Part shown: positions 3,931 to 13,339 of the stretch, piece by piece
How the letters are laid out: every line of letters begins with the position of its first letter
Position numbering within the stretch: position 1 is the stretch's first letter
Source: Candidatus Roizmanbacteria bacterium CG_4_10_14_0_2_um_filter_36_35
GTDB lineage: Bacteria; Patescibacteriota; Microgenomatia; UBA1406; GWC2-37-13
Reading direction: 5' to 3'
Assembly (NCBI GenBank): GCA_002792355.1
Contig: PFOE01000081.1
Location: forward strand, 1 to 40,126
Length of the DNA stretch: 40,126 bases
Program-made: the position numbers and the translations under genes
Notes under the pieces: generated by a model
The model's input: the letters and a program-made list of their open reading frames with translations, nothing else
What the model was told of the DNA's origin: nothing
Database searches by the model: none

Positions 3931-5115
3931 ATGGCAGAAGGTAAATTTCAGAGAAACAAGCCTCATTTGAATATCGGAACCATCGGTCACGTCGATCATG
4001 GTAAAACTACTCTTACATCAGCAATTCACTATGTCTTGTCAAAAAAAGGCAAAGCAAAGTTTTTAAAATATGAAGATATTGATAAAGCTCCTGAAGAAAG
4101 AGCTCGTGGAGTCACCATCAATCTTCATCACAGCGAATACGAAACCGACAAAAGGCACTACGCCCATATTGATGCTCCAGGCCATGCCGACTACATCAAA
4201 AACATGATTACCGGAGCTGCTCAGATGGATGGAGCCATTCTCGTTGTCTCAGCTCCAGACGGCCCAATGCCCCAAACCAGAGAACATATTCTTCTTGCCC
4301 GTCAAGTTAACGTCCCGGCCATCGTTGTTTTCTTGAATAAAGTTGATATGGTCGCCGATAAAGAAATTCTTGATTTAGTAGAAATGGAAGTAAGAGATCT
4401 TTTGAAGAAATATAAATTCGACGGAGACAAAATTCCAATAATCAGAGGATCAGCTCTTAAAGCTTTGTCTGATGATCCAGAAGCAATTAAGGCGATTGAA
4501 GAATTAATTGCTAAGGTAGACGAATACATTCCCGAACCTGTCCGACCAGTTGATAAACCATTCTTGATGCCGGTTGAGGACGTCTTCACGATTTCCGGTC
4601 GCGGCACCGTTGTTACCGGAAGAGTCGAAAGAGGCATTGCCAAAGTTAATGAAGAAGTAGAAATAGTTGGCATCAAAGAAACCAAAAAAACAGTTATCAC
4701 CGGAGTCGAAATGTTCAGAAAAACACTGGATGAGGCTCGGGCTGGTGACAATGTCGGACTGCTTCTTCGCGGAATTGAAAAAGACGATGTTTTACGAGGA
4801 CAGGTTATAGCAAAACCGGGATCAATTACTCCTCATACCGAATTTGAAGCAGAAGTATATGTTCTCACCAAAGAAGAGGGTGGACGTCATACGCCTTTTT
4901 TCAAAGGTTACCGACCGCAGTTCTATATCAAAACCACTGACATTACTGGTGAAGTAACCCCTCCAGCTGGAGTAGAAATGGTTATGCCAGGTGACAATGT
5001 TAAGGTCACCGCTAAGTTGATTTATCCAGTAGCAATGGAAGAAGGATTGAAGTTTGCCATTAGAGAGGGTGGTCATACAGTGGGAGCGGGAGTTGTCACA
5101 AAGATTATTAAGTAA
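3931..5115 (+). CDS. tuf: Elongation factor Tu
   Basis: [24 protein letters not shown]; full-length 394 aa EF-Tu. Confidence 0.99.
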
Positions 5116-5236
5116 ATTTCTAATTTCTAATTGACCTAATTTCTAAAAAAGACCCAATTATCAAAATCCCAATTTGAAAATTGGTGATTGGTTATTGTTT
5201 AGATCAATTAGATCAATTAGGTTAATTAGGTAATTT
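5116..5236. repeat. AT-rich tandem/inverted repeat in the tuf-rpsJ spacer
   Basis: AATTTCTAATTTCTAATTGACCTAATTTCTAA ... CCAATTT-GA-AAATTGG ... AGATCAATTAGATCAATTAGGTTAATTAGGTAATT; the two ends are roughly complementary. Confidence 0.6.
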
Positions 5237-5251
5237 TTTTCGCACTTTAAT

Positions 5252-5560
5252 ATGCCGAAAGGAAGAATCAGAATTAAGCTAAAATCGTACGATCATAGGT
5301 TGATCGATGAGACCTGTCAAAAGATTGTTGATACGACAATCAGGACAGGCGCTTCGATTATTGGCCCGATTCCTCTGCCGACTAAAAAAGAGGTTTATAT
5401 TGTTAATAAAGCCTCATTCATTGATAAAAACGCCCGCGAACATTTCGGCTTAAAAATCCACAAAAGGTTGATTGATATTATTAATCCCACTAATCAGACG
5501 ATTGATTCTCTGATGCATCTCGAACTGCCTGCCGGTGTTGAGGTTGAAGTGAAGATGTAA
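5252..5560 (+). CDS. rpsJ: 30S ribosomal protein S10
   Basis: 'RIRIKLKSYDHRLID...GPIPLPTKKEVYIV', 102 aa. Confidence 0.98.
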   Translation: MPKGRIRIKLKSYDHRLIDETCQKIVDTTIRTGASIIGPIPLPTKKEVYIVNKASFIDKNAREHFGLKIHKRLIDIINPTNQTIDSLMHLELPAGVEVEVKM

Positions 5561-5567
5561 AATTCAT

Positions 5568-5596
5568 TTGACCCTCACAAATTGATAGTATATAAT
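5568..5596 (+). promoter_or_regulatory. Putative sigma70-type promoter upstream of rplC
   Basis: TTGACC (5568-5573), exactly 17 nt, TATAAT (5591-5596). Confidence 0.75.
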
Positions 5597-5647
5597 TTAT
5601 GCACATGTTAATTATTCTTTGTTCGGGAGCAAAGGATTAATATTTTT

Positions 5648-5687
5648 CCGGATTGGATTTTGGCCCCAATCTGGGGCTATTTTTTTT
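5648..5687 (+). terminator. Intrinsic terminator overlapping a candidate antiterminator stem (leader attenuator of rplC operon)
   Basis: Terminator TGGCCCC-AATCT-GGGGCTA (5661-5679) followed by T8 (5680-5687); alternative stem CCGGATTGG (5648-5656) / CCAATCTGG (5666-5674). Confidence 0.7.
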
Positions 5688-5762
5688 GGCATGAACTAGA
5701 ACAAAGTTCAGTTCATGCCAACCCTGAACCGTTTTGCCGGAGGCAAATCTGGTTCATGGGTT
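5688..5762 (+). repeat. Two back-to-back long inverted repeats in the rplC leader
   Basis: GGCATGAAC...GTTCATGCC (5688-5719) and AACCCTGAACC...GGTTCATGGGTT (5720-5762). Confidence 0.8.
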
Positions 5763-5790
5763 GGGATGTTGTTATTTTAGAGTCACATAT

Positions 5791-6489
5791 ATGCCAGCTT
5801 TTATTTTAGGTGCAAAATCAACACAATCACAGAGATTTGATGACAAGGGAGAAAGAATCCCGACTACTTTTATAAAAACCGACTCTTGTTGGCTTACCGA
5901 TGTTAAGATGCCATCCAAGCATGGATATTTTAGCGTCAAGCTCGGATTCGGTCAAATCAAAAACATCAAAAGGCCAGTCCAAAAAGAATTAGAAAAAGCG
6001 GGGATAAAAACCCCGCTTCGTTTTTTAAGAGAGTTCAGACTTGAAGATTATGGAGATAAGGTAAAGTTTATTGAAGAGCCCGCCTCCGCCGAGGCTTCAG
6101 CGGGCAAAGGTAAAAAAGGAATCGCAATTGGAGAGACAAAAATATACGTTGGCGAAGTCGTAAAGCCAACGGTTTTTTTAAAAAAAGGAGATAAAGTATC
6201 TGTTTCTGGAATTTCCAAAGGAAAAGGATTTCAGGGAGTAGTCAAGAGACATCACTTTAAAGGCGGTCTGAGAACTCACGGACAGTCCCACGGAGAAAGA
6301 GCTCCAGGGTCAATCGGAATGACAACCACCCCAGGACGGGTTTTTAAAGGAAAAAGAATGGCCGGAAGAATGGGCAATGACAGAGTGACGGTAAAAGGTT
6401 TGGAAGTCGTTGAGGTTAAAGACGATGGAATTGTCGTCAGAGGATTAGTGCCAGGACACAAAGGAGGACTATTGGAAGTTAGGAGTTAG
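5791..6489 (+). CDS. rplC: 50S ribosomal protein L3
   Basis: MPAFILGAKSTQSQRF start, 'SKGKGFQGVVKRHHFKGGLRTHGQSHGERAPGSIG'; start revised from the 5734 ORF start because the upstream residues come from hairpin leader DNA. Confidence 0.96.
   Translation: MPAFILGAKSTQSQRFDDKGERIPTTFIKTDSCWLTDVKMPSKHGYFSVKLGFGQIKNIKRPVQKELEKAGIKTPLRFLREFRLEDYGDKVKFIEEPASAEASAGKGKKGIAIGETKIYVGEVVKPTVFLKKGDKVSVSGISKGKGFQGVVKRHHFKGGLRTHGQSHGERAPGSIGMTTTPGRVFKGKRMAGRMGNDRVTVKGLEVVEVKDDGIVVRGLVPGHKGGLLEVRS
6078..6105. repeat. In-frame palindromic element inside rplC
   Basis: GCCCGCCTCCGCCGAGGCTTCAGCGGGC, encodes PASAEASAGK; same reading frame as the copy in rplV. Confidence 0.75.
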
Positions 6490-11743: not shown

Positions 11744-12028
11744 ATGAGCAGATCACTAAAAAAAGGTCCATATGTGGATGAAAAGCTTTTAAAGAAAATT
11801 ATGAAGCAGAAAGAATCAAGAGATAATAAGCCAATTCGGACTTGGTCTCGAGACTCTCAAATTTCTCCTGAGTTTGTTGGTCATAATCTGGCTGTCCACA
11901 ACGGGAGAAAGTTTACTGAAATCTTTATTTCTGAAGCGATGGTTGGTCATCGATTAGGAGAGTTTTCTCCGACAAGAACTTTTAGAAGTCATGGAAAGGT
12001 AACCAAGAAAGTTATTGAAGCGACTTAA
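11744..12028 (+). CDS. rpsS: 30S ribosomal protein S19
   Basis: '[18 protein letters not shown]', '[37 protein letters not shown]'. Confidence 0.98.
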
Positions 12029-12435: not shown

Positions 12436-12993
12436 ATGTCAAAAATAGGCGAAAAAACAATCGAAATTTCCCAAGGCGTAAGTGTAAGTATTGATAAAAA
12501 GAAGATCAACGTGAAAGGACCACATGGAGAGTTAACAATAGAACTTCCTGATAAATTAGAGATTTTGACTCGGGAAAATAACTTATTGGTTAAAAGAAAT
12601 GATGATGAAAAAAAGACCAAATCAATTCATGGTCTCTATCGACAGCTCATTAATAACGCTATTTTGGGCGTGCAAAAATTATGGGAGAAAAAGTTGAAAG
12701 TAGTCGGCACTGGTTATACGGTCAAACTCGATAAGGAAGATTTGGTCTTTAAGATCGGTTACTCACATCCGGTAGTTTTTAAAAAAACATCAGGAGTAAA
12801 ATTTCAGGTAGAAGGTAACAATAAGGTCGTTGTCTTAGGTTGTGATAAACAGTTGGTAGGAGAAATTGCTTATCAGATAAAGATATTGAAAAAACCAGAC
12901 GTTTATAAAGGCAAAGGCATACAATACGAAGGTGAAAAATTAAGAATTAAACCAGGCAAGAAAGCCAAAGTTGCCGGAGGAACCGTCGCTTAA
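12436..12993 (+). CDS. rplF: 50S ribosomal protein L6
   Basis: 'MSKIGEKTIEI...VKGPHGEL', 'KKPDVYKGKGIQYEGEKLRIKPGKKA'. Confidence 0.98.
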   Translation: MSKIGEKTIEISQGVSVSIDKKKINVKGPHGELTIELPDKLEILTRENNLLVKRNDDEKKTKSIHGLYRQLINNAILGVQKLWEKKLKVVGTGYTVKLDKEDLVFKIGYSHPVVFKKTSGVKFQVEGNNKVVVLGCDKQLVGEIAYQIKILKKPDVYKGKGIQYEGEKLRIKPGKKAKVAGGTVA

Positions 12994-12994
12994 T

Positions 12995-13339
12995 ATGGGA
13001 AAAATAAATTTTAATAAAAAAACAAGAAAAAAAAGAAGAATAGGTACCAGTATTGAGGGAAGAGAAAAAAGACCAAGAATCTCGGTGTATCGATCTAATC
13101 GTTATATTTATGCTCAAGCTATAGACGACGAAAAACGAACAACACTAGTCTCTTTTTCCAGTCAAAAACTGCCTAAGAGTAAAAAAGTTAATCAAGCTAA
13201 AGAAGTAGGTTTACAGTTGGCCAAAGTTCTTAAAGAAAAAAAAATCAGTACGGTGGTTTTTGATAGAAATATTTATATTTATAAAGGTAGAGTTAAGGCT
13301 CTCTGTGATGGGCTTAGGGAAGGAGGAATAAAAGTATGA
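12995..13339 (+). CDS. rplR: 50S ribosomal protein L18
   Basis: 'RPRISVYRSNRYIYAQAIDDEKRTTLVSFSS', '[28 protein letters not shown]'. Confidence 0.96.
   Translation: MGKINFNKKTRKKRRIGTSIEGREKRPRISVYRSNRYIYAQAIDDEKRTTLVSFSSQKLPKSKKVNQAKEVGLQLAKVLKEKKISTVVFDRNIYIYKGRVKALCDGLREGGIKV

Follow-up and report, generated by a model that had tools for sequence, protein, structure and literature searches.

A predicted transcription attenuator with a leaderless open reading frame in front of rplC of Candidatus Roizmanbacteria

Organization of the rpsJ-rplC region

The window, i.e. the whole stretch of DNA that was analysed (40,126 nucleotides), is one contig (G000:C48) of an 850-kb genome; the relatives of its L3 protein that carry a name belong to Candidatus Roizmanbacteria. 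The genes and features around the rpsJ-rplC spacer are the following (+, forward strand):

3931-5115, tuf, upstream of rpsJ
5252-5560, rpsJ, upstream of the putative switch
5568-5596, +, promoter: TTGACC (5568-5573), 17-nt spacer, TATAAT (5591-5596)
5602-5605, +, predicted transcription start, 0-3 nt before AUG, inferred from the distance to the -10 box
5605-5640, +, leader ORF ATGTTAATTATTCTTTGTTCGGGAGCAAAGGATTAA, encoding MLIILCSGAKD*, 11 codons and stop (5638-5640)
5614-5637, +, stem 1 (H1), ATTCTTTG/CAAAGGAT, from folding, inside the leader ORF
5648-5656, +, antiterminator 5' arm CCGGATTGG
5661-5687, +, intrinsic terminator TGGCCCC-AATCT-GGGGCTA-T8: stem-loop 5661-5679, T8 5680-5687
5666-5674, +, antiterminator 3' arm CCAATCTGG, common to the terminator
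5686-5768, +, hairpin-rich dispersed repeat with inverted repeats, in the gap between terminator and rplC
5791-6489, +, rplC (L3; PF00297), first gene of the controlled operon

Genes for L4, L23, L2, L22, S3 and L16 follow 3' of rplC in this order. The rpsS gene (S19) is not found between those for L2 and L22 and lies far downstream in the operon, at 11750-11992 (window 11744-12028); similar distances in relatives suggest that this relocation is conserved.

The dispersed repeat in front of rplC is missing from the nearest relatives and is outside the conserved switch; its segment 5711-5763 matches another contig of the same genome at 92%. Within rplC, a GC-rich stretch of CCCGCC...GCGGGC type (6078-6110, encoding PASAEASAGK) looks like a palindromic repeat inserted into the L3 gene, and locus L007 carries a CCTGCCTGCCGGCAGGCAGG stretch near the same place. 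The tuf-rpsJ spacer (5116-5251) contains repeats of AATTAG/CTAATT type and a T-run at its end and may represent a terminator or another site of regulation.

Promoter and predicted leaderless start

A near-consensus promoter in the gap between rpsJ and rplC had been noted in a preliminary description of this DNA. Its coordinates are correct, and its score of 11/12 against the consensus is equalled but not surpassed among the promoter-like sites of the first 20 kb. Since 70 such sites were found there and 55 are expected by chance, the match by itself is weak proof. It recurs in relatives: TTGAC/TTGAA-17-TATAAT is present at the same spot in nearly all of them.

Nearly all relatives also have an ATG 7-10 nt past the -10 box (8 nt in the window), that is, within about three bases of the expected transcription start. 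The leader transcript is thus inferred to be leaderless, without a mapped start site. TATAAT-N6-10-ATG occurs 152 times in the genome, compared with 64 for the reversed control, and many of the inspected sites open long ORFs; judged by this signal, leaderless genes look common in this genome. A typical 16S 3'-end sequence that includes a normal anti-Shine-Dalgarno also occurs in the genome, and both modes of initiation are therefore probably in use. According to a review (PMC9031893), it is mostly whole 70S ribosomes that bind leaderless AUGs, and leaderless translation is plausible here.

Antiterminator and terminator

The antiterminator stem consists of 9 bp with one G-U pair (5648-5656/5666-5674), and the terminator is among the best terminator-like sites of the region. 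Both structures use 5666-5674 and are hence mutually exclusive. The preliminary description had located the two stems and their overlap correctly, and the antiterminator stem recurs in 49 family instances.

Folding of the 89-nt leader is better than that of shuffled sequences (z -2.4). In stepwise folding of the window RNA, the antiterminator is present once the RNA reaches 5674 and the terminator is optimal only from about 5680 (-23.1 versus -23.9 kcal/mol). Because the gain is only 0.8 kcal/mol, the resting state of the window cannot be deduced from energies. When RNA up to 5649 is masked, the terminator alone remains. Mean energies in the family are -11.3 kcal/mol for the antiterminator and -11.7 kcal/mol for the terminator; the two are nearly equal, a balance required of a switch.

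The 5' arm of the antiterminator is almost invariant in 43 aligned relatives, where 95.3% of cells are paired with the 3' arm. No covariation of the arms above shuffles was detected in the family alignment, because the arms hardly vary. The terminator is kept in relatives, where its two arms have changed in concert, for example to GACCCC/GGGGTC and GGCTCC/GGAGCC. Of the check in relatives that had been proposed for these stems, conservation was therefore borne out for both antiterminator and terminator, and covariation within the family was not obtained for the antiterminator. In several species the T-run directly abuts the rplC ATG, so that rplC can be reached only by read-through. Comparative data thus support the earlier claim that an antiterminator/terminator switch precedes the rplC superoperon; start and termination of transcription have not been shown experimentally.

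A reading frame ending in front of the antiterminator

The leaderless ORF situated between promoter and antiterminator, the best evidence on the working of the switch, was not part of the preliminary description. In the window its stop codon lies 7 nt before the antiterminator 5' arm. With the AUG as fixed starting point, the stop of frame 0 falls 0-15 nt before the antiterminator in 36/42 leaders (6/42 and 11/42 in the other frames) and lies before codon 7 in none of the 42, whereas the other frames stop that early in 17 and 9 leaders. With dinucleotide-shuffled leaders as the null for stop position, an ORF ending 0-13 nt before the antiterminator is found in 38/44 family members versus 5.5 expected, and among dissimilar representatives only an ORF ending before it is found in 22/25 versus 2.8. 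The hold-out families f2 and f3 give 6/6 versus 0.8 (P about 1e-5). The species are not independent in these comparisons.

The length of leader peptides has a sharp peak at 11 codons. Other members of the family encode, among many more, MKIKFCSGTK*, MLLFLVRETGS*, MFFSLFGITGE* and MSIFRLSEKLQLKA. The peptides of f2 and f3 (MTKVVSAGKEGV, MPIIGFVIGIHT, MTKLMFSALDIF, MLNKTALNSFI*, MTKIFVVPSVV* and MELSKLSHKQV*), when read side by side with these, have no evident likeness to them. Among 63 leader peptides there is no universal residue, the most frequent ones being Ile and Leu (73%), and neither a common codon run nor a Cys run was seen. As the peptide sequence varies and its length and position are kept, it is the frame that is conserved, not the peptide.

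Exceptions exist. L120, L136 and L137 are without an AUG at the usual place, L138 has later ones only, and in L035 and L116 the leader stop is behind the antiterminator arm. Five members of the genus (L009, L012, L015, L018 and L021) have lost the terminator and retained the leader ORF, which there has 34-41 codons, is in a frame other than that of rplC and extends over the start of this gene with an overlap of 50 nt. That the ORF outlived the terminator in these five suggests that its translation matters.

Distribution in the order and class

The rpsJ-rplC spacers were collected from the genus and family. Promoter, antiterminator and terminator occur in the same order before rplC in the 49 family instances and in two more families of the order. 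GATTG-N5-24-CCCCAATCTGGGG was found in 45/83 genomes from the order, each time at a single place (two overlapping matches made one genome count twice), and not once in the reversed control. Wherever examined, the element adjoins rplC. These comparisons are the strongest evidence for the predicted switch and show that it is a real element, present as a single copy before this gene.

Among 380 sampled genomes of the phylum, only that of the window matched the exact antiterminator/terminator sequence, which is therefore mostly confined to the order. Different antiterminator/terminator pairs occupy the same spacer in other orders of the class, e.g. CGGATTTTGGG with GCCCCTATCCGGGGC and CTCGGATGAG with CGACCTCAACCGAGGTCG. 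Complementarity between leader and terminator exceeds that of shuffles in these orders (combined p about 5e-5, 34 spacers, kinship uncorrected), and an ORF of 7-20 codons ends at the antiterminator in 15/22 cases versus 3.7 expected, the permitted range being partly post hoc. The same pairing logic with different sequences can be taken as independent support for the predicted antiterminator/terminator.

Two kinds of leaders were observed besides. A strongly conserved GATACTTTGGTATACT...CCAAAAGTCTCGGATGAG leader occupies the same spacer in L292, L293, L299, L303, L305, L307, L311, L316, L318 and L320, mostly from one family. In L242, L243, L246, L248, L252 and L260, belonging to other orders, GGAGGT(GATC) is located at or right behind the start codon of the leader ORF; it is a near-perfect complement of the 16S 3' end and perhaps offers an alternative ribosome-binding route to the leader.

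Proposed mechanism

We think it probable that the rpsJ-rplC spacer acts as a transcription attenuator controlled by the leader ORF and serving ribosomal-protein feedback. Its architecture (promoter, exclusion between antiterminator and terminator, ORF, stop placement) is well supported at the level of sequence. What is inferred, without RNA-seq, ribosome profiling or genetics, is that initiation here is leaderless, in which direction control works and what the signal is.

RNA polymerase would start at the promoter, with AUG as the first or nearly first codon of the RNA, and ribosomes would load on this leaderless AUG and translate about 11 codons. Whenever translation fails to reach the end of the leader, CCGGATTGG would pair with CCAATCTGG once the latter is made. 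Formation of the antiterminator would exclude the terminator, and transcription would proceed into rplC, rplD, rplW, rplB and beyond. The leading edge of a ribosome covers about the first 9-10 nt past the stop codon. A ribosome positioned at the stop codon 5638-5640 would accordingly cover the start of the antiterminator 5' arm, 7 nt away; with the antiterminator blocked, the terminator would form and transcription would end after about 85 nt. It is this geometry that gives the direction from translation to termination.

As the leader peptides have no amino acid in common, leader translation in general is the most likely signal. Initiation on the leader and transit through it would serve as a proxy for available ribosomes, resulting in negative feedback. 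The spare-ribosome signal is inferred from the lack of a common codon together with the ribosomal-protein target operon.

Stem 1 and alternative explanations

Stem 1, which the preliminary description had placed after the promoter, is present (5614-5621/5630-5637, 8 bp, one G-U); it is less important than had been suggested, since it is variable in sequence across relatives and mostly inside the leader ORF. Within the family, folding of the ORF segments is better than in shuffled controls (mean z -1.46, with 29/44 below -1). In sister families the hairpin is absent or different, and ORF and antiterminator/terminator are kept. In the window, the antiterminator arm is no part of stem 1, and there is no hairpin of the 1:2 type that would sequester the antiterminator in the absence of a ribosome; in one genus only does it extend two bases into the arm. 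It is possible that stem 1 is a pause hairpin for RNA polymerase, which is a reasonable guess only. Stem 1 as a conserved sensor was dropped, being variable and not common to sister families. Likewise rejected was a pseudoknot that would join the loop of stem 1 to the antiterminator arm through UUCGG/CCGGA; it was recognized by eye in the genus and is not kept elsewhere.

This variability bears on the possibility of an autogenous leader, in which a protein encoded by the operon, such as L3 or L4, binds either stem 1 or the antiterminator region and shifts the balance between antiterminator and terminator, in the manner of L10(L12)4 at rplJL of Bacillus subtilis. Autogenous control is the rule for ribosomal-protein operons in model bacteria, the E. 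coli S10 operon being controlled by L4 partly via termination (PMC10931766), and stem 1 does recur in the family with better folding than shuffled sequences. Autogenous control of this kind is nevertheless unlikely here, as the stem changes in sequence and is not the same hairpin in sister families that keep the ORF and antiterminator/terminator, and as the conserved reading frame and stop position would be left unexplained. Rfam covariance models gave no match to the window at gathering score, in accordance with the earlier statement that the leader is not one of the named r-protein leader families; the best sub-threshold match was the unrelated CncR1 (22.6 versus 76 bits), and families retrieved at relaxed E-values were rejected as chance-like.

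An attenuator in which the leader ORF senses one charged tRNA, as in trpL, hisL and mycobacterial poly-Cys leaders, would have the same geometry, and the commonest residues of the peptides are Leu, Ile and Phe. It appears quite improbable because no residue or codon run is shared by all 63 peptides; U-rich leader codons are accounted for by base composition and by the stem, which is rich in U. In its favour was counted that argG of the same genome is preceded by a possible Arg leader ORF. This locus (L167; G000:C12, about 12900-13003, minus strand) has a leaderless 23-codon ORF MKILLSTNLISRRTFGEGRIFMT* with Arg codons, separated from argG by a CCCGCC...GGCGGG-T6 terminator, and possibly is an arginine leader-peptide attenuator. 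Its downstream gene had been taken by eye for infC; this was rejected, the gene being argG.

It might also be that the terminator is a weak internal one fixing the rpsJ:rplC transcript ratio by constitutive trimming, and the ORF a by-product. The energies of terminator and antiterminator are close, and internal terminators that fix r-protein ratios are reported from an archaeon (PMC10450193, abstract). We consider such trimming very doubtful, given that the promoter precedes the terminator and that antiterminator complementarity and ORF stop placement would be superfluous. Finally, promoter, ORF and terminator make up a complete small gene, but a stand-alone small RNA or micro-protein gene of about 85 nt, with rplC transcribed from elsewhere, can hardly be maintained: in several species the T-run directly abuts the rplC ATG and another promoter has no room, the peptide sequence is unconserved, and the element always stands beside rplC where examined.

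The main tuning of ribosomal-protein operons is thought to come from r-proteins that bind their own mRNA. Under control by the leader ORF, a whole order of minimal-genome bacteria, and apparently much of its class, seems to rely on the translation of a tiny leaderless ORF in place of this. If so, ribosome capacity would feed back directly on ribosome synthesis, and a laboratory strain with a short reporter construct would allow the mechanism to be tested. For the hard-to-culture Patescibacteria, a concrete conserved mechanism of gene regulation would be gained. A wider proposal is tentative and rather less than probable: a class-wide ribosome-availability sensor of Microgenomates, in which a sequence-indifferent leaderless ORF of about 11 codons, not an r-protein repressor, would set the S10/spc-type superoperon, spare 70S ribosomes would directly terminate the transcription of genes for their own proteins, and the ORF of some lineages would be re-wired to overlap the rplC start.

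Comparison with known systems

The literature that was searched contained no paper on such a leader in Patescibacteria. The survey of Eckert and Weinberg 2020 lists 20 r-leader candidates, which are predicted cis elements of r-protein genes (PMC7247131); the only rplC entry found in it is archaeal (L4, Archaeoglobi), and none is from Patescibacteria.

The E. coli S10 leader (L4 leader) resembles the window in that rplC-rplD-rplW-rplB are controlled by termination at an intrinsic terminator. It differs in being located before rpsJ, long, structured and L4/NusA-dependent, and the review describes no leader ORF (PMC10931766). The rplJL attenuator of Bacillus subtilis is likewise an r-protein operon under antiterminator/terminator control with a leader peptide involved. 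There, an anti-antiterminator is the binding site of L10(L12)4, and the peptide of the leader is encoded at and behind the terminator and counteracts Rho (PMC4538822), whereas the ORF of the window precedes the antiterminator.

Mycobacterial attenuators with leaderless poly-cysteine short ORFs (Canestrari et al. 2020, cited in PMC9031893) are similar in having a leaderless short ORF that acts in cis on the downstream operon. The window differs by the absence of a Cys run, by target and by taxon, and the two are, as far as known, not homologous.

In its working the predicted switch parallels attenuators of the trp/his type, which have a short 5' ORF, mutually exclusive antiterminator and terminator, a stop codon placed to block the antiterminator 5' arm and, possibly also in the window, a pause hairpin first. 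The short 5' ORF is matched in silico only, by the conserved ORF and stop position; exclusion is matched by the common segment 5666-5674, conserved in the family; masking of the 5' arm by a ribosome at the stop is matched by geometry only. Codons for the regulated amino acid are not found among the leader peptides examined. The window further departs from this type in lacking a regulatory codon run and an antiterminator-sequestering hairpin, in its leaderless start and in having a ribosomal-protein superoperon as target. Without the amino-acid codons that define the type, the predicted switch would, among known attenuators, combine a trp-type working with a leaderless start.
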